Shown: one piece after another, positions 2,021 through 35,179 of the stretch
How the letters are laid out: each line of letters starts with the position of its first letter
How positions within the stretch are numbered: the first letter of the stretch is position 1
Virus record (IMG/VR): IMGVR_UViG_3300010885_006184
Location: 1-35,179 of that record
Reading direction: 5' to 3' (one strand)
Origin: a virus
Length of the DNA stretch: 35,179 nucleotides
The notes under the pieces: model-generated
The model's database searches: none
The model's input: the letters and a program-made list of their open reading frames with translations, nothing else
What the model was told of the DNA's origin: nothing
Position numbers and translations under genes: made by a program

Positions 2021-3118
2021 ATGACCGTCGGTAAAGTCAAAGATTTCAACTTTTCGCACAAGGGCAGCATTGGCCGTGGCCCGGTGAAGAAATTTGAGGA
2101 CGGCGGCATGTACAGCGATGTTACCAGCGCTGATCCGCAGCCTGTCTCGCAGTCTGCCCCGCAACTTACGCCTATGCAGAAGCGTCGGATGCAGATGCAG
2201 CAGGCCTCCAAGCGGCAGGCGGCTGTCGCTCAGCAGTCGCGCGATCTGACGATGAATCTGCCAATGGATAGGGGCCTGTCTTTTGGCCGCGATGTCATTC
2301 AAACCCTTCCTAACGACATGGGTGCCTCATCTGCCTATGAAAAGATGTACAAAAAGGGCGGCAAAGTAGCCAAGGTCATGCATGAATTCGGCGAAGGCAA
2401 ACTGCACTCTGGATCCAAAAAGGGCCCCGAGGTAAAGAGCTCCAAGCAGGCTATTGCTATTGCTCTCAGCGAGGCTGGCAAGGCCAAGAAGGCTAAGGGC
2501 GGCAGCGTAAAGTCTGTGCCGGTCAAGGATGTCAAAAGCGGCAAAATTCCGCAGTCCACTGACGAGGACTTCTACGGCAAAGAGATCCCTATGCCTCCCC
2601 GTCGCCCAGACGGGATGAAAAAGGGTGGCGAATGGGAAGGCTCCGCCAAGGATGAAGCGCAGGACAAGAAGCTGGCCAAGAAGCATGGCATGAGCATGGA
2701 GAAGTGGGAATCATCCAAAATGGATGAGAAGCACGACCGTCAAAAGTCCATGAAGGGGCTGAAGGACGGCGGCATGGCTCAGAAGGTTCAGATGGCGAAG
2801 TCGAACGCTGTTGAGCAATCTTTGCAGGGCCAGAAGAAGACCCCGTATGCCGATGGCGGCAATGTTATGGGAGCTCTAGCTGGTCTTGGAACGCGCAGGC
2901 CGATGACTGCAATGCCGCCCAAGTCCGTGCCTGTCGCATCACGCGCGCCTGTCATCGCGCAGCAGGTTCCTTCGACTGGCGCAGTTGCCGTTGGCAAATC
3001 TCGCCCCGGGCAGCCTAACGTAGGAGCAATCCGCGCGGCTATGGCTCGCAAGGCATCAATGGCTATGCCTGAGAATGCCCCTGATATGATGAAGAAGGGT
3101 GGAAAGGTGCGGTGCTAA
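2021..3118 (+). CDS. Lys/Gly-rich virion-associated protein with DUF6496-like segment
   Basis: 365 residues, Lys-, Met- and Gly-rich, starting after AGGAGGGC. Residues about 110-160 carry YKKGGKVAKVMHEFGEGKLH followed by SGSKKGPEVKSSKQAIAIAL, which matches the DUF6496 pattern as I remember it. Short KKGG, KDGG and YADGG motifs recur along the chain, and the protein ends in MKKGGKVRC. Most of the remainder looks disordered (Gln/Met-rich near residues 45-70, Pro-rich near 290-340). The role is unknown; scaffold, DNA-binding packaging factor or ejected basic protein are all possible. The stop codon directly abuts the next ATG. Confidence 0.75.
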   Translation: MTVGKVKDFNFSHKGSIGRGPVKKFEDGGMYSDVTSADPQPVSQSAPQLTPMQKRRMQMQQASKRQAAVAQQSRDLTMNLPMDRGLSFGRDVIQTLPNDMGASSAYEKMYKKGGKVAKVMHEFGEGKLHSGSKKGPEVKSSKQAIAIALSEAGKAKKAKGGSVKSVPVKDVKSGKIPQSTDEDFYGKEIPMPPRRPDGMKKGGEWEGSAKDEAQDKKLAKKHGMSMEKWESSKMDEKHDRQKSMKGLKDGGMAQKVQMAKSNAVEQSLQGQKKTPYADGGNVMGALAGLGTRRPMTAMPPKSVPVASRAPVIAQQVPSTGAVAVGKSRPGQPNVGAIRAAMARKASMAMPENAPDMMKKGGKVRC

Positions 3119-4203
3119 ATGGCCGTCTCCGGCACTGTCTCAACAACCGTATTTCAGACCCGGAAGGTGATTGATCACGCCTTCCGGCGCTGTCGCATGC
3201 AACCGCAACAGATTTCCTCTGAGCTAATCGAGACGGCGAAAGATAACCTTTATCTTTTGCTGTCCTCGCTTGGCAGTCAGGGTGTCCCTCTTTGGTGCAT
3301 CGAGAAAGAGATCCTCCCGCTCTATCTTGGTCAGGCAGCTATTGTGCCACCCAAAGGTACGATGGACATCCTGAATGCCAACTATCGCTGGCTGTCGCGC
3401 CAGAACGGGCCTGTTCAGTACAGTGCCCCGGGTGGCATCCCGCAGTATGCCTTTGACGGCGACCTCGACACGTCTTGCGCCCAGACTGGCCCTAACGGGA
3501 ACATTGAGATCGCCTATATTGGTTCTGATCCGATCAGTGACCCTCAATCTCAAGTGCAGGTGACAACTGTCGGCGTGATGATGGCGACGACTGGCACCTT
3601 CAATATTGAGTTTGAATGGTCAAATGATGGTGCGACGTGGACCTCAAGCCTATCACCGGGGGCTACCCTCTACACCGCTGGTAAGTGGCAGTGGTACGAC
3701 ATCGATGGCACCCAGCCGGTGAACTACTTCCGCATGCGCGAGACTAGTGGCAACACGCTCAATGTCATTGAGTTCTATGCTGCCAATAACCCCACCGAGA
3801 TCCCTCTTGCTCGCATGAACCGCGACGATTGGACAAATCTGCCCAACAAGGTCTTCGCTGGCCGACCTCTCCAGTATTGGTTCGACCGGCAGCGCGACTA
3901 CCCTGTGATGCGGATCTGGCCAGTGACTGATACGACCAGCATGTTTGGACAGCTCACGATCTGGCGGCAACGCTATATCATGGATGTTGGGACACTCACA
4001 GACGAGCTCGATATCCCGCAGCGCTGGTATGAGACGATTGTCTGGCAACTTGCATGGCGGCTTGCTATGGAGCTTCCAGAGTTCAATTTGCAGTTGATCG
4101 GGCCCATCAAATCAACTGCTGATGAAGCTCTCAAGATTGCGCAGGACGAAGAGCGCGACAACTCACCCATCTACTTTGCTCCTAACATCTCGCCGTACAC
4201 CAG

Positions 4204-4207: not shown

Positions 4208-5945
<1,738 letters not shown>

Positions 5946-14031: not shown

Positions 14032-14550
14032 ATGAAAGAAAATTGGGAAAACTGTTTCGCCATGGTTTTGAAGCACGAAGGTGGGTTCGTAAACCACCCA
14101 AAAGACCCCGGTGGCATGACCAATTTAGGGGTCACGAGGGCAAATTGGGAGCGCTACCTTAACCGGGACGTGACTGAGGCCGAGATGCGCGCCCTGACGC
14201 CTGAAACCGTCAAGCCCTTCTACAAAACGCAATATTGGGACAAGATCAAGGGCGACCAACTCCCATCTGGCGTTGACTACGCTGCATATGATCTTGCCGT
14301 AAACTCTGGCACCGGCAGGGCTGCCAAGTACCTCCAAGAGATCGCTGGTGTAACTGCGGACGGCATGATCGGCCCCAAATCTCTGGAAGCAATACAGTCT
14401 TGCAATGCTACGGAAGTAGCAGATGCGATATGCGACATGCGGCTGGATTTCCTCAAAAAACTCTCGACTTTCGAGACTTTTGGCAATGGCTGGACAGACC
14501 GTGTTGTTAAGGTCAGGGCCAAGTCAGTCAGTATGGCGGATGAGGCCTGA
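14032..14550 (+). CDS. Endolysin, GH108-type N-acetylmuramidase
   Basis: 172 residues. The N terminus has HEGGFVNHPKDPGGMTNLGV, the signature of GH108 muramidases, with the catalytic Glu at residue 16. The helical core (MRALTPETVKPFYKTQYWDK, VDYAAYDLAVNSG) and a peptidoglycan-binding-like second part with TADGMIGPKSLEAI complete the usual 170-190-residue enzyme. There is no signal peptide, so export should depend on the holin encoded just upstream. ATG 14032 is preferred over the in-frame codon at 13972, which would overlap the holin gene. Confidence 0.9.
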   Translation: MKENWENCFAMVLKHEGGFVNHPKDPGGMTNLGVTRANWERYLNRDVTEAEMRALTPETVKPFYKTQYWDKIKGDQLPSGVDYAAYDLAVNSGTGRAAKYLQEIAGVTADGMIGPKSLEAIQSCNATEVADAICDMRLDFLKKLSTFETFGNGWTDRVVKVRAKSVSMADEA

Positions 14551-25430: not shown

Positions 25431-25517
25431 TTAATCCCCTCCTGTCGCAAGAAGAAATGCTATGAGGCTAACCCCATAAACTGCTGCTACCCATAGGGCC
25501 GATTCAATTTTGCGCAT
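25431..25517 (-). CDS. 28-residue membrane peptide
   Basis: A short frame runs from ATG 25517 to TAA 25431 and encodes MRKIESALWVAAVYG then a hydrophobic stretch VSLIAFLLATGGD. It is preceded by GAGGGAAGAAC, overlaps the end of the DnaA-like gene by 14 bases, and its tail forms the ribosome site of the next gene. The basic N terminus and single helix of about 18 residues predict an inner-membrane peptide. It is easily missed by gene callers. Its reality rests on the ribosome site and exact tiling with both neighbours. Confidence 0.65.
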   Translation of the reverse strand: MRKIESALWVAAVYGVSLIAFLLATGGD

Positions 25518-26034
25518 GTTCTTCCCTCATTCTCTTCAGTTGCATTTTCCAGTAGAGATATCGGACAGGATCCATCTCCACAACTTCGCAAACCTCAAAA
25601 TCAAGGCTGGTCAAATTGGCGTTCACAAACCTCCTGATGCTGTTGAGAACTGTTGTGTGATCTCTCTTACCAACAAGTCTGCCGATTTGAGGTAGTGACC
25701 AACCATTCGCCTTCAAAGCTATGTAAATTTCAGACCGAATGTGGACATATCGAGCCGTCTGTTTTCTGCCGCAAACGTCCTTCCAAGTAATTCTATGACG
25801 CTCAAGGATCGGCAAGATTCTGCCTTTGGTTTCATCTGATGCTGGTATGCCCCTAATCAGATCAAACTTTGGAACAGGCTTGATGTGGTCTAGTGGCATC
25901 ATTGGCTGGGGCGCGGGCTCTGGCGCAGGCTCAGGGGCGGCTTTCGGTTTTTCGACTACCTTTGGCCGCCCTGCATTCAACCGGCTGCGCACGGCCTTGT
26001 AATGGGTGTGGAGGTCCATAAGAGCGTCAGACAT
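25504..26034 (-). CDS. DnaA domain IV-like DNA-binding protein
   Basis: 176 residues. ATG 26034 is chosen because GGGAGAG lies five bases upstream; an in-frame TTG at 26055 is not favoured. Residues 24-46 are a Pro/Ala/Glu linker. Residues about 97-137 (RSEIYIALKANGWSLPQIGR and LVGKRDHTTVLNSIRRF) match DnaA domain IV, including the GxRDHTTV signature that reads the DnaA box. The AAA+ ATPase and other DnaA domains are absent. It could compete with host DnaA at the chromosome origin, or act as a regulator or initiator at phage sites. The C terminus (RYLYWKMQLKRMREE) is basic and helical. Function beyond DNA binding is inferred. Confidence 0.8.
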   Translation of the reverse strand: MSDALMDLHTHYKAVRSRLNAGRPKVVEKPKAAPEPAPEPAPQPMMPLDHIKPVPKFDLIRGIPASDETKGRILPILERHRITWKDVCGRKQTARYVHIRSEIYIALKANGWSLPQIGRLVGKRDHTTVLNSIRRFVNANLTSLDFEVCEVVEMDPVRYLYWKMQLKRMREEHAQN

Positions 26035-26263
26035 TGTTCTCTCCCAATGCGGCAATCACGATGCCGTCTATATGATCGCTGAAACGGTCGCGCTTGTTGT
26101 TGACCTTTGCAATCTCTCGAAGAGCACCCTCCAGAAACTCAATTCTGCTGGTTTGCTCCCAAACTTTGCCCTCAAGATTGTCGATCAGCTTTTCAGCTTC
26201 TAAATACTGCTGATGCCAGCGGTTTTCTTGTGTTTCCCAATAGTGAGCTTGTTTCATGTTCAT
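26027..26263 (-). CDS. Small coiled-coil hypothetical protein
   Basis: 78 residues from ATG 26263, seven bases after AAAGGAG; the frame is open further upstream but without a better start. It begins MNMKQAHYWETQENRWHQQY and continues with coiled coil (EAEKLIDNLEGKV, RIEFLEGALREIAKVN), ending in IDGIVIAALGENNV. The stop overlaps the DnaA-like start by eight bases, so expression of the two may be coupled. No named family recognised. Confidence 0.7.
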   Translation of the reverse strand: MNMKQAHYWETQENRWHQQYLEAEKLIDNLEGKVWEQTSRIEFLEGALREIAKVNNKRDRFSDHIDGIVIAALGENNV

Positions 26264-30302: not shown

Positions 30303-31010
30303 ATGATCGACAAACGCTTGCCGCTGTTCAAGATAGCATCGAATATTTTTGATTCGATCAGCCTTAAGGATGTTGAGAAAACAGCAGACGACATGGAGGA
30401 GCTTGGCATTTATCTGCCGCCCTACAATCATTTCTATATTCAGGGCAATATGAAGTTAATTCTCACCATGATGCAGCATATTTCGGAAGAAGATCTGTCG
30501 AGCGTTATGGAAGGAATTAAGGCCGATAAAATGCAAGTCATGTTTGAATATCTTTTTGATGGAACGCATATGCAAGTTGCTATGTTGCGCTCCTTTAATG
30601 GTTCTGAATTTATTCCCGTTGAATCAAAAATGTTTACAGGGACGGACAAGGATTGGACCGAATGGGTGGCGTTCACGTCGGTTGAATTATTGATAGTTCT
30701 TTTGTCCACGAAGAACATCGAGAAAGAAACCGAGACATGCAATAAGCCGAATTCGCGCAACAGGCGCGAGCGCACCATTTCAAAATATGCGTCGATCACA
30801 ACTATTAAGATCGGCAAAATTACCGAAACGGCTCGGTCTGGTAATGGTAATGGCGGCCCTGTTCGCCCTCACCTGCGCCGTGGTCACATTCGCAGCCAGC
30901 CATACGGCAAGGGCAGGTCTGAGGTCAAAAAGATCTTCATCCAGCCGATGTTCATCAATGCCGATCAGGGGTGGATTGACTCACAAAAAGAATATCGGGT
31001 GAAGGCATGA
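30303..31010 (+). CDS. Conserved phage protein with PVRPHLRRGHIR motif
   Basis: 235 residues, starting after AAGGAGACCAAC. The first half is helical (LFKIASNIFDSISLKDVEKT, YIQGNMKLILTMMQHI). The C-terminal part has PVRPHLRRGHIRSQPYGKGR followed by IFIQPMFIN, which I recognise from many phage and prophage proteins; no function is known to me. Codons are AT-richer than in the genes on both sides. It overlaps the primase-helicase gene by ATGA and is therefore likely coupled to replication. Confidence 0.75.
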   Translation: MIDKRLPLFKIASNIFDSISLKDVEKTADDMEELGIYLPPYNHFYIQGNMKLILTMMQHISEEDLSSVMEGIKADKMQVMFEYLFDGTHMQVAMLRSFNGSEFIPVESKMFTGTDKDWTEWVAFTSVELLIVLLSTKNIEKETETCNKPNSRNRRERTISKYASITTIKIGKITETARSGNGNGGPVRPHLRRGHIRSQPYGKGRSEVKKIFIQPMFINADQGWIDSQKEYRVKA

Positions 31011-33139
31011 ACGAAGGCAAAGCAATGAGCAATTTCGATCCAGACTTCGCAGGCCCGGCTGAGTGGGCAAACATGTATCGCGGGCTCGGCCTTCAGGTGG
31101 TGCCTGCAATGAGCCATCGGGAGAACAAGCAGCAGTGGAAGCGCCCGGCCCTCCCCAAGTGGCGCGAGCTTGAACACGAGCTGACGCCAAACTTCACCTT
31201 CGAGCGCTGGTACGGCGAATCAGGTGAGCATTCTCGGCGCAACAACATGGGGGTGATCGCGGGCGCTTGCTCATCTGGCGTTTTTGTTGTGGATCTAGAT
31301 CTCCACAAGGATCTTCGCGCACAGGCATGGTGGGACGAAATGTCGCACATGCAGCAGAAGGCTGGTGAGCTTGAAACAGCCGAGCAGGAAACTGGCGGCG
31401 GGGGCATCCAACTGTTTTTTCGCGCCCCCTTGGGCTGGACCCCACCCACCTGCAAGACATCCATCGGTGTGGATATCCGTGGCCAAGGCGGTTTCGCCAT
31501 GATGCCGCCCTCGATGCACGAAAGCGGGCGGGCGTATGCATGGAAGGCCGGGCACGAGCCTTGGGAGATAGATATTGCTCAGGCCCCGGCATGGTTCTGC
31601 GATCAGGTCACAGCACTTGCCAAAGAGCATGGTGGATCCACAGGATCGACAGGCCCGGCACAGCGCACCTCGACCCCCACCATGGCGTCCACAGCCTTCG
31701 GCACGATCACAGACGGGCGCGAGGACTACATGACCAGAATGGTCTGGGCGCGCGTTGTCGATGAGTACAGGCAGTGCCCCATTCCTCCGGGGGTGACAGA
31801 ATTTGACACCATGCTGCGCGACACCTTCGCCACCTACGAGCGCGCGGTGAAGTCTCGCATCAGGGAGCCCGGCACCCCGAACCACATCTTGCTGGAGCGC
31901 GAAGGCAGGGGCATCACCCTGCTCAGGCAGAAGCTGACCAGCGCCATCTCGCAGTGGGATGACAAGGTTTCAACCCATGCCGCAGTTCCGCCAGCGCCCA
32001 AGCAGCAGGTGAGGGCATCGATCCCTCTCCCCGGAGGCGGCGAAGCCTTGCAAGGCGTAGCCGCCGACCCAGAGGCGCACCCAGCAGACCCATCCCTCTT
32101 TGAGCTTCTCTCAGTGACAGCGATCAAAAACCTCCCCGACCCCGACTGGCTCATTGACGGATTCGTGATCGACCGTGGCCTCGGGTTCGTGTTCGGCCCC
32201 CCCGGATGCGGCAAGTCGTTCATCACCCTTGGGCAGGCCCTCTCAATAGCCACAGGGCAGGCCACATGGTGGGGCAAGAAGATCATCCGCACAGGCCCCG
32301 TGATCTACATCAGCAGCGAGGGCGTCGGTGATATCAAGTTCCGCCTGCGGGCATGGGAGACTCACCTCGGCGTGAAGGCGGATGAGGCCCCCTTCTATCT
32401 GATCAGGCAGACCATCAATTTCATGCTCGACACGGACATCGACCGGCTGCTGCGCACCATCAACGCCCTGTGCGAGCAGCTCGGGGAGCTGCCGGTGGCT
32501 GTATTCGTGGACACGGTCAGCCGTGTGCTGCCCGGCGCAGACGAGAACTTGCAGAAGGACATGACCCTGTTTATTCGGGCCTGTGACGCCGTCAGGGAGA
32601 CCTTTGCGGCCACTGTCGTCGGTGTCCACCATACCAGCCGGGCGGGCAACATGCGCGGATCCAGCGTCTTTGATGGCGCTGGCGACTTCCTCGCCCAGAT
32701 CGAACGTGATGAAGGCGACATGATCGGAACCATGACAGCCAAGAAGATCAAGGCTGCTGCGGACGGGTGGAAGCAGCATTTTGAGCTGATCTCGGTGAAC
32801 ATGGGCGACATCAAGGGCACCACCAGTCTGGTCGCCGAGGCTTGTGACGCCAAGGCGCAGCCGGACAAGAGCGTGTGGCCACCCAAGGATGTGTGCCGCA
32901 AGATCCTCACCGAGATCAGCAGCGCATGGAACTCGGGCAAGCCGTGGTCATCCATGCCGCAGACAAAGGCCAAGGGGAGATATGCCCCGGGCCTTATCAA
33001 GGCCAAGTTCGACATCGTCGAAAAGACCGCCGAGATGATGGTGCAGACGTGGTTACAGAACGGAATCTTGTCCTACGAGATGCGGGACAAGGTAACCAAA
33101 ATGCAAGGGCTCAAAGTGACAGGGAGCATAGATTCATGA
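31007..33139 (+). CDS. Primase-polymerase/helicase fusion (Prim-Pol + RepA-like AAA ATPase)
   Basis: 710 residues. The N-terminal third is a bifunctional primase-polymerase: Asp96-x-Asp98 in FVVDLDLHK, GGGGIQLFFRAP near residues 131-141, and Asp156 in GVDIRG. A Gln stands where the family usually has His in the GG-x-H motif. The C-terminal half has a Walker A (GPPGCGKSF near residue 395), the SSEGVGDIKFRL segment, Walker B-like PVAVFVDTVSR, and VVGVHHTSRAGNMRGSS, all typical of RepA-type hexameric helicases. It should prime and unwind DNA at the phage origin. It overlaps both neighbours by ATGA. Confidence 0.85.
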   Translation: MNEGKAMSNFDPDFAGPAEWANMYRGLGLQVVPAMSHRENKQQWKRPALPKWRELEHELTPNFTFERWYGESGEHSRRNNMGVIAGACSSGVFVVDLDLHKDLRAQAWWDEMSHMQQKAGELETAEQETGGGGIQLFFRAPLGWTPPTCKTSIGVDIRGQGGFAMMPPSMHESGRAYAWKAGHEPWEIDIAQAPAWFCDQVTALAKEHGGSTGSTGPAQRTSTPTMASTAFGTITDGREDYMTRMVWARVVDEYRQCPIPPGVTEFDTMLRDTFATYERAVKSRIREPGTPNHILLEREGRGITLLRQKLTSAISQWDDKVSTHAAVPPAPKQQVRASIPLPGGGEALQGVAADPEAHPADPSLFELLSVTAIKNLPDPDWLIDGFVIDRGLGFVFGPPGCGKSFITLGQALSIATGQATWWGKKIIRTGPVIYISSEGVGDIKFRLRAWETHLGVKADEAPFYLIRQTINFMLDTDIDRLLRTINALCEQLGELPVAVFVDTVSRVLPGADENLQKDMTLFIRACDAVRETFAATVVGVHHTSRAGNMRGSSVFDGAGDFLAQIERDEGDMIGTMTAKKIKAAADGWKQHFELISVNMGDIKGTTSLVAEACDAKAQPDKSVWPPKDVCRKILTEISSAWNSGKPWSSMPQTKAKGRYAPGLIKAKFDIVEKTAEMMVQTWLQNGILSYEMRDKVTKMQGLKVTGSIDS

Positions 33140-33459
33140 ACGCTTACGCTAGATCAACAGACCCACAATCGTCGCACGATGCAGCAGCCAACATAAACGT
33201 GACCTACCTACAACAGGTGGTCATTGATTGTTTGGCGGCGCACCAGACACCCATGACAAGCCTGTCAATTGCAGCCGCTGTCGGCATCCCCGTCTGGTCT
33301 ATCTCCCCCCGTATGAGGCCATTGGAGAACGCCGGGAAGATCGTTTGCGTTGGTTCACTCCCGGCCCTGAACTCATCCGGCAAGATCCGCAATTTGCGCC
33401 ATTATGTGCTTACGGAAGTCGCCGGAGGTCATACGGAGGTTACGGAGGTCTCCAGCTAA
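33136..33459 (+). CDS. Small winged-helix DNA-binding protein
   Basis: 107 residues from ATG 33136, which overlaps the helicase stop by ATGA. Residues about 25-70 (YLQQVVIDCLAAHQTPMTSL, AAAVGIPVWSISPRMRPLEN, AGKIVCVGS) form a winged helix-turn-helix like those of phage replication and regulator proteins. The last 15 residues (TEVAGGHTEVTEVSS) are encoded by the first repeats of the downstream array, so gene and repeat have grown together. It is a natural candidate to bind the array, as iteron-binding initiators often do; this is not shown. Confidence 0.7.
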   Translation: MNAYARSTDPQSSHDAAANINVTYLQQVVIDCLAAHQTPMTSLSIAAAVGIPVWSISPRMRPLENAGKIVCVGSLPALNSSGKIRNLRHYVLTEVAGGHTEVTEVSS

Positions 33460-33558
33460 GTCATTGAAATCATTATACGGAGGTTGGTACGGAGGTTACG
33501 GAGGTCTGGAAAAACACCATTGAAATCATTGAGCAATTTTACGGAAGTGTACGGAGGT
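33411..33558 (+). repeat. Iteron-like direct repeat array, consensus TACGGAGGT
   Basis: Nine copies of TACGGAGGT or one/two-base variants start at 33411, 33421, 33432, 33441, 33476, 33488, 33497, 33540 and 33550. Several lie in pairs 9-10 bases apart, one DNA helix turn. The 13-bp AT-rich repeat CATTGAAATCATT separates them at 33462-33474 and 33518-33530. An inverted copy of the core, ACCTCCG, lies at 33589-33595. The array begins inside the wHTH gene and continues through the intergenic gap. Regular spacing, AT-rich segments and position after primase-helicase suggest an origin or operator. Confidence 0.8.
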
Positions 33559-33563
33559 TGAAC

Positions 33564-33597
33564 CCCTATACTTCGTATAGGGTGGCGGACCTCCGCC
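33564..33597 (+). promoter_or_regulatory. Two perfect hairpins beside the iteron-like array
   Basis: CCCTATAC (33564-33571) pairs with GTATAGGG (33575-33582) over a 3-base loop, and GGCGGA (33584-33589) pairs with TCCGCC (33592-33597). Neither has a T tract. The second stem includes the reverse complement of the repeat core. They may be origin hairpins, or block translation or transcription between the two genes. Confidence 0.6.
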
Positions 33598-33650
33598 GCC
33601 ACCCCGAAGTGAGCAAGTCGGTAACACAAACTAGGCTAATGGAGAACAAC

Positions 33651-34280
33651 ATGAACAAGGCAAAAGCAAACACCGGCAAGAAAACAAAAACCCAGTTCGG
33701 TTTACCGGCGGATCATGTCGCCCCGCCGCCATGGCAGGAGACGGTCGGGACGTACCTCGGGGGGCAGGCGCATGTCGATGAGATGGATCTGGTCGCCATC
33801 GAGATGGAGAAGCGGTGGGGCGCTGGCAGGCTGAGGCTGGTGGTCGATCCGATCCTGCGGGAGAAGTTCGACCGGCAGCGCTACCTCGTGAATCAGGCGC
33901 TGTGGCATGGCGAGCTTCAGGACGTGATCCGGGAGTCCAAGCGGATGGTCTTGGCGTGGCAGGCTCTGGATCGAGCTGCAACGGCTGCTGGCAGGCAGGC
34001 GCTCGCCCCCGAGGTGTGGGAGGTCACGCTGGCCAGCGGGACGGTGGCGGCCATCGTCAGGGATAGCCATCACGCCAGCAAGGTGGCGGTCGAGAACCGC
34101 AGCGTCAGGGTCTACACGCTCGAGGAGATCGGCCACCTGCTGCACGGGTTCCCCGAGCTGTCGAAGGCCAAGGCTACATTCCCCGGCGCGGCCGTCGAGA
34201 AGGTCAGCACCCGGGTGATCGATCCCTTGCAGGCCGTGCCTGACAGCAAAGCACCCATTGACGACGCGATTCCATTTTGA
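33651..34280 (+). CDS. Phage protein with SSB-like C-terminal acidic tip
   Basis: 209 residues from ATG 33651, seven bases after GGAG; ATG 33639 is an alternative. The N terminus is a basic tail (NKAKANTGKKTKTQFG). The body has APPPWQETVGTYLGGQAHVD, EMEKRWGAGRLRLVVDPILR and VWEVTLASGTVAAIVRDSHH. It ends in SKAPIDDAIPF, which is close to the DDDIPF tip of bacterial SSB that recruits repair and replication partners. No OB fold is evident. It may bind the same partners as SSB. The gene has GC-rich codons. Confidence 0.75.
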   Translation: MNKAKANTGKKTKTQFGLPADHVAPPPWQETVGTYLGGQAHVDEMDLVAIEMEKRWGAGRLRLVVDPILREKFDRQRYLVNQALWHGELQDVIRESKRMVLAWQALDRAATAAGRQALAPEVWEVTLASGTVAAIVRDSHHASKVAVENRSVRVYTLEEIGHLLHGFPELSKAKATFPGAAVEKVSTRVIDPLQAVPDSKAPIDDAIPF

Positions 34281-34291
34281 GGAACTAGAAC

Positions 34292-35179
34292 ATGGCCGCC
34301 TACTACAACGAAATCGAACCCTACGCCGCCGAATGGCTCCGCAACCTCATAGCCAAGGGACTGATAGCAGATGGTGAAGTCGATACCCGGTCAATTGTCG
34401 ATGTTCGACCTGCCGATTTGGCAGGATTCTCCCAATGCCACTTCTTCGCCGGAATCGGCGGGTGGGGGCACGCCCTCCGCCTCGCCGGGTGGCCAGACAA
34501 CCGGCCTGTGTGGACGGGCTCCTGCCCGTGCCAGCCGTTCTCGGTCGCAGGCAAAGGAGCCGGTGTTAACGATCCAAGGCACCTGTGGCCTCACTTCCAT
34601 CGCCTCATCACCGCCTGTCGGCCACCTGTCATCATGGGAGAACAAGTTGCGGGACAAGCTGGGTATGGTTGGCTCGACGGAGTGCGCGCTGATTTGGCGC
34701 GAGAAAACTACGCCAGCCGGGGCGTCGATATCCCGGCTTGCTCGGTGGACGCCCCCCACATCCGACAGCGGCTCTACTGGGTCGCTACAGACTTGGGGAA
34801 CCCCAACGTGTCACATGGCGAAGGAGGCGGGGTATCCAGCCGAGTTCACCCGCAACACGCTCACGCTGACTGCGGAGGCGCACATAGCCACATGGCGAAC
34901 GCCAGCCGCCACAGAACCGGGGGTGACGCTGGAGCGTCTGGAGACGGCGGGCGGTCAGCCTTGGACGCCGGGCCAGAGAGCTTACGACAGACACACGGGC
35001 AGGGTGGCACAGGTGGGCCTAACGCACGAAGTGTTGGCCACATGGCCGACGCCCAGAACGACGGACAAAGCCGACGGCCGCATTTTGACGCCGAATGGTC
35101 AGAGGACGAACGCCGCAGGGACGATTACCTTCGGCGCGAACATATCGGATTTGGTTCATCTGTATGTAGCGACGTGGCC
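34292..35179 (+). CDS. DNA cytosine-C5 methyltransferase, N-terminal part (cut by window end)
   Basis: 296 codons are visible and the frame is still open at 35179. The ATG follows GAGGAACTAGAAC. Motif I is FFAGIGG at residues 51-57, motif IV is PCQPFS with the catalytic Cys80, motif VI is EQV at 117-119 where ENV is usual, and motif VIII is RQRLYWVA near 158-165. After this the text has LGNPN, HMANASRH and HMADAQN segments, as in variable target-recognition parts of phage enzymes. It would methylate C5 of cytosine and could protect phage DNA from host restriction. A cognate restriction gene is not in the window. Confidence 0.85.
   Translation, partial: MAAYYNEIEPYAAEWLRNLIAKGLIADGEVDTRSIVDVRPADLAGFSQCHFFAGIGGWGHALRLAGWPDNRPVWTGSCPCQPFSVAGKGAGVNDPRHLWPHFHRLITACRPPVIMGEQVAGQAGYGWLDGVRADLARENYASRGVDIPACSVDAPHIRQRLYWVATDLGNPNVSHGEGGGVSSRVHPQHAHADCGGAHSHMANASRHRTGGDAGASGDGGRSALDAGPESLRQTHGQGGTGGPNARSVGHMADAQNDGQSRRPHFDAEWSEDERRRDDYLRREHIGFGSSVCSDVA

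Follow-up and report, generated by a model that had tools for sequence, protein, structure and literature searches.

The region between positions 33411 and 33604 of the 35,179-nucleotide stretch of viral DNA that was analysed (the window) very probably constitutes a replication origin, as judged from sequence comparison. The fuller reading that we favour, and consider likely, is that of a phage replication origin in which the C-terminal winged helix of the primase-helicase encoded upstream acts as reader of the direct repeats (iterons) and as loader of the helicase. The features involved are as follows.

31007..33139, + strand: Prim-Pol/RepA-like helicase fusion of 710 aa (Prim-Pol, AAA_25 core, C-terminal winged helix predicted at about aa 626-705); proposed self-loading initiator
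33136..33459, + strand: small ORF of the winged helix-turn-helix (wHTH) type, 107 aa, phrog_1123; its 3' end overlaps repeats 1-4
33411..33449, + strand: iteron cluster A, 9-bp repeats at 33411, 33421, 33432 and 33441
33458..33474, + strand: AT box 1, AAGTCATTGAAATCATT, with two TCATTGA-like units; candidate unwinding element
33476..33505, + strand: iteron cluster B, repeats at 33476, 33488 and 33497
33514..33530, + strand: AT box 2, ACACCATTGAAATCATT
33540..33558, + strand: iteron cluster C, repeats at 33540 and 33550
33564..33582, + strand: hairpin 1, CCCTATAC-TTC-GTATAGGG, perfect, 8 bp, loop TTC; candidate priming or assembly site
33580..33604, + strand: hairpin 2, GGGTGGCGG-ACCTCCG-CCGCCACCC, perfect, 9 bp, loop ACCTCCG
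33589..33595, - strand: tenth repeat (CGGAGGT), inverted, inside the loop of hairpin 2
About 33651..34280, + strand: gene D, 209 aa, of a family without assignment; accessory partner outside the cis element

The direct repeats share the core CGGA(A/G)GT, nine copies of which are arranged in clusters of four, three and two (core starts at 33413, 33423, 33434 and 33443; at 33478, 33490 and 33499; and at 33542 and 33552). Within the clusters the repeats are spaced by 9 to 12 bp, i.e. near a helical turn as in iteron origins, and the clusters themselves follow each other with a period of about 65 bp. The longer form TACGGARGT is exact in eight of the nine repeats, repeat 2 being GCCGGAGGT, and its sole exact occurrence outside the array in the 35 kb window is at 14409. 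The array is genuine and lies far above chance: CGGAGGT is found eight times on the two strands of 33136-33736, as compared to a maximum of three for any 7-mer in 300 dinucleotide shuffles. The original prediction had described nine repeats, several of them at helix-turn spacing, together with two copies of an AT-rich 13-mer and two perfect hairpins, lying downstream of a primase-polymerase/helicase gene and overlapping the end of a small ORF. All of these elements were recovered, with Prim-Pol and AAA_25 domains encoded upstream and repeats 1-4 within the overlap; the tenth, inverted repeat had escaped it.

The 13-mer CATTGAAATCATT occurs once inside each AT box, and no further such box was found in the window when up to three mismatches were allowed. 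The same or nearly the same box as AT box 1 is present in relatives that use different repeat words, and 0.2% of shuffles show one. The AT-rich element that is expected beside the repeats of an iteron origin is represented here by two boxes that are kept across lineages, and for which unwinding is a candidate role.

The two hairpins overlap by 3 nt. An alignment of 13 sequences indicates that hairpin 1 carries compensatory changes: with a covariation score of 0.651 it exceeds all of 500 shuffles (mean 0.222) as well as structures obtained by sliding the hairpin (0.04-0.26), and changes on both sides are seen in eight of nine pairs. In the same alignment 81% of the cells pair, a percentage that is biased towards structure as the sequences were selected and centred on the palindrome. 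At the place of hairpin 2 the relatives usually carry a G+C-rich hairpin. An inverted repeat copy 3' of hairpin 1 was observed in 19 of 39 loci, where about 3.5 would be expected, and is absent in half of the loci; it is present in six of seven phage records from outside IMG/VR, with several unrelated words.

A scan of IMG/VR with the primase-helicase yielded 80 loci, most of which display a common module order: repeats, AT box, repeats, AT box, repeat pair, hairpin and G+C-rich hairpin. The array is located at the helicase stop codon in L003, L005, L007, L008, L016, L046, L047, L074 and L077; others have it as far as about 4 kb 3' of the helicase gene, in unchanged orientation. By a strict cut-off (one 7-mer at least six times in 330 nt) an array is found downstream in 28 of 41 dereplicated helicase loci versus upstream in two of 34; one of the 28 (L066) resembles a coding repeat, and nine loci below the cut-off are clear by eye. 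When read by eye, about 36 of the 41 dereplicated loci with enough downstream sequence carry the array, at 0-4 kb 3' of the helicase gene, and none was seen in L027, L037, L041 and L063. The repeat words vary by lineage, partly in step with the C-terminal domain of the primase-helicase. Those upstream of gene D include CGGAGGT, CGGAAGT, CGGAACT, CGGATAA, GGCGGAGA, CCGTCGA, TGGCGCA, TGTGCCC, CTGTTTC, GACGATG and CTGAACG; hairpin 1 persists despite these word changes, as does the AT box in many loci. This comparison supports the proposal of an iteron origin: in many phages the module keeps its orientation and its place 3' of a primase-helicase gene of this family, its hairpin changes in a compensatory manner, and the words are specific to lineages. 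The cumulative GC skew of the window has no extreme at the array (its minimum is at 18.0 kb) and is uninformative.

The same arrangement was observed in isolated phages. In RHph_N65 (MN988536) the helicase/primase gene is directly followed by 11 direct copies of CGGAGAT (34937 to 35099) and one inverted copy (35125), together with the AT box CTAAGTCATTGAAATCATTGA and the two hairpins; this array is the strongest repeat cluster of the genome. The cumulative GC skew of RHph_N65 shows no extreme at the array (35.0 kb), its minimum being at 24.3 kb. Other words directly follow an AAA_25 gene in Rhizobium phage 16-3 (p101) and RHph_X2_25 (13-15 CGTGACA), Alteromonas PB15 (8 TGGTTCA), MW202867 (8 TGGGACA) and Roseobacter CRP-406 (5 GCTGGAA), and each of these arrays ends with a hairpin. 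The CGTGACA arrays of 16-3 (L205, about 56250-56610 of the record) and RHph_X2_25 (L211) are dense, run in both orientations and are candidate origins. The primase part is a Prim-Pol in some isolated phages and a Toprim in PB15 and CRP-406; therefore, the constant component is the AAA_25 helicase and not the primase type. No array was found with the actinophage helicase homologues of Wanda, Upyo and Shagrat, nor right after the gene in Caulobacter GB2A and MW202711. The latter record (L207) contains seven TGAACGT at 3050-3149, within the repA-like coding region and not after the gene. In the open-access literature that was searched, neither 16-3 nor the AAA_25 phages were found to have a described origin.

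Repeat arrays can serve as operators, and both in the window and in most relatives the array and hairpins are situated just upstream of gene D. We nevertheless consider it very unlikely that the array controls D or the replication operon as an operator or attenuator whose hairpins would act at the RNA level. In RHph_N65 gene D is not detectable and the genes beyond the array point back towards it; a position 3' of both neighbours, as here, speaks against an operator. No promoter-like site and no Rfam match were found, nor any terminator-like site at the hairpins. AT boxes and an inverted iteron would be unexpected for an operator. A terminator reading of the hairpins was rejected for the lack of a T run. 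Likewise, GGAGGT was rejected as a ribosome-binding sequence since homologous arrays use CGTGACA, TGGTTCA and others, and words such as CGTGACA are unlike a ribosome site.

Partition centromeres, packaging sites and attachment sites may contain phased direct repeats too. That the array represents one of these is the least probable of the readings considered, and hardly credible, as its constant neighbour is the primase-helicase gene and not a gene of the ParA/ParM type, a terminase gene or an integrase gene. In RHph_N65 the integrase is found at 12.6 kb and the terminase at 43.8 kb, whereas the array is at 35.0 kb.

With respect to the protein that would act on the putative origin, the primase-helicase of the window matches Prim-Pol (PF09250, E 1.2e-23) and AAA_25 (PF13481, E 2.2e-33) and no other Pfam family. 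Its sole sequence match in the PDB is RepA of RSF1010 (1g8y, E 4.2e-5), by which the helicase core is recognized as a homolog of that protein. For the C-terminus a winged helix is predicted: a model of the last 130 residues, built with 49 relatives, places this fold at the end (mean pLDDT 77, domain blocks 78-95), and VIA returned mostly winged-helix domains for the model, the complex of the SAMD1 winged helix with DNA ranking first (Z 8.2). Foldseek gave no match to the same model at E < 0.001.

The original prediction had put forward the small wHTH protein as the cognate binder of the repeats. The ORF matches phrog_1123 (E 5.6e-11) and shows a weak likeness to a protein annotated as 'marr family'; the repeats supply roughly its last 16 codons. 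No copy was detected in the 44 relatives, of which many retain the array, an empty result that alone proves little, and none was found in a scan of viral contigs. In L007 and L016 the array comes right after the helicase stop codon, without an intervening gene. Because the ORF is undetected in the 44 records and these two arrays exist without it, it was discarded as a general binder; it is probably an insertion between helicase and array. The origin part of the initial interpretation has gained comparative support; its binder part is not supported. Loss of the repeats in relatives that keep the genes, which would have spoken against an origin, was not encountered: the array stays and the wHTH gene is missing.

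A better candidate for the binder is the primase-helicase itself, by way of its predicted C-terminal winged helix and with its RepA-homologous core. Provided that the element is an origin, we expect with good confidence that the C-terminus reads the repeats, in line with the way in which repeat word and domain vary together. Among pairs of loci repeat similarity rises with C-terminal identity, and where the cores differ, similar repeats are found in 58% of the pairs with a C-terminal identity of at least 0.38, as compared to 11-13% below that value. When core and primase identity are controlled for, the partial Mantel coefficient for repeat versus C-terminus is 0.35 (0 of 2000 permutations). 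The link is confounded by descent, however: the AAA core has a partial coefficient of 0.48 with the repeats, as strong as the C-terminal link, and the relation is for that reason consistent with a C-terminal reader and not proof of one. Exceptions are L100, which combines a similar repeat with a diverged C-terminus, and L182, where a similar C-terminus goes with a different repeat.

The repeats of the origin might instead be read by gene D, by a DnaA-domain-IV-like protein (25504-26055), by the stand-alone winged-helix proteins of some relatives or by a host protein, which we regard as unlikely, though clearly less so than the operator. At least 30 loci have gene D 3' of the array, but RHph_N65 retains the array without a detectable D, so the array goes with the primase-helicase. 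The DnaA domain-IV-like segment is encoded on the - strand (TIGR00362, E 7e-8); with relatives in 16 of 44 records only, it was rejected as a general initiator, and it was not found in the array-bearing 45-kb records L014 and L016 (which may be incomplete). A stand-alone homologue of the helicase C-terminus, finally, is encoded in L003 between the array and D. What also speaks against such other readers is that every isolated phage examined that has an array shows the AAA_25 gene as its shared neighbour.

The stand-alone protein of L003 (2703-3305) ends in a part that is like the helicase C-terminal winged helix (39% identity). A protein with such an end is also encoded upstream of D in L089, L091 and L125.

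Relatives of gene D were found in 334 IMG/VR stretches and on 32 genome contigs, largely alphaproteobacterial (Bradyrhizobium, Magnetospirillum, Roseomonas and others), but there was no match in 50,697 phage records and no convincing one in Pfam or the PDB. Many, if not most, copies end in an SSB-like tail (DDxIPF). The protein is predicted to form a helical bundle with a small alpha/beta part, for which Foldseek and VIA gave generic helical matches only. Of 109 dereplicated loci scanned upstream of D, 70 repeat some 7-mer five times or more within 330 nt (a few of these being coding repeats), a level that none of 545 shuffles reached. D is likely an accessory replication protein in this subgroup that is not needed for the general plan. 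Downstream of it the record (35,179 bases) ends inside a cytosine-C5 DNA methylase gene (34292-35179), and the phage genome is therefore incomplete here. Among the structural genes a collagen-like GXY-repeat protein is encoded (4503-5945).

The following mechanism can be proposed. The C-terminal winged helix of the primase-helicase would bind the iterons and, once bound, would assemble the hexameric RepA-like helicase, which in turn would open the AT boxes. The fused Prim-Pol domain would then make primers on the exposed strands at or near the hairpins, to be extended by a DNA polymerase. A second helicase, facing the opposite way, may owe its placement to the inverted iteron that follows hairpin 1. 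That the hairpins are the priming sites themselves is a tentative assignment, with a chance somewhat below even.

Taken together, the loci may belong to one large class of replicons, undescribed so far and self-contained, in phages of proteobacteria, a generalization that we favour by a small margin over its negation. The class would have one chassis (iteron clusters, AT boxes, covarying hairpin and inverted iteron) and RepA-type helicases, with an exchangeable primase and C-terminal DNA-binding domain and with its own repeat 'password' in each lineage. If true, the sequence would directly reveal where 16-3, RHph_N65 and other such phages have their origins. Most origins of environmental phages are unknown, and the simple rule to read the stretch after the AAA_25 primase-helicase gene yields candidates in dozens of distant phages, including isolated ones that are open to immediate testing. 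The constant chassis with its variable words would also form a natural data set on the joint change of winged helix and origin, and might supply the alphaproteobacteria with phage-derived replicons that are compatible with one another.

Several known systems resemble this organization. The iterons that are bound by the C-terminal domain of SaPI Rep and of SCC Cch2 lie immediately 3' of the helicase gene (PMC7581432). The SaPI Rep/ori and SCCmec Cch2 systems share with the relatives of the window a helicase with iterons just 3' of its gene and a fused or neighbouring primase (PMC7581432), although in the window, where the C-terminus would do the binding, one small gene intervenes. Their helicases are of the DUF927 or D5_N/Primase_Cterm type, whereas the core in the window is AAA_25 and RSF1010 RepA-like, and the window adds AT boxes, hairpins and an inverted iteron in a fixed layout.

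Phage P4 alpha unites primase, helicase and origin recognition in one protein and also uses iterons (summarised in PMC4234260), as the primase-helicase would do here; it has a Toprim primase and another helicase type, in contrast to the AEP Prim-Pol and AAA_25 RepA-like core of the window. The Prim-Pol plasmid pRN1 has its origin 3' of the replication gene as well (PMC4234260). Its ORF904 is, like the protein of the window, a Prim-Pol-helicase fusion (PF09250 in the window) that ends in a winged helix, predicted in our case, but it contains an SF3 helicase and acts with a 100-nt stem-loop without iterons, where the window has an iteron array and short hairpins.

Finally, the IncQ oriV of RSF1010 is similar in its homologous RepA-family helicase (1g8y; a hexamer in RSF1010), its iterons and the presence of hairpins near them, which in RSF1010 are the priming sites ssiA and ssiB used by the primase. 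In RSF1010, however, RepA, RepB' and the iteron binder RepC are separate proteins, whereas the window combines primase, helicase and predicted winged helix in one 710-aa chain. The iterons of the window are short, and its covarying hairpin belongs to two adjacent hairpins, a layout unlike the separate ssi sites. The origin of the window would appear to work like the SaPI/SCC and IncQ origins; because one defining feature of each fails here, it is assigned to neither group.
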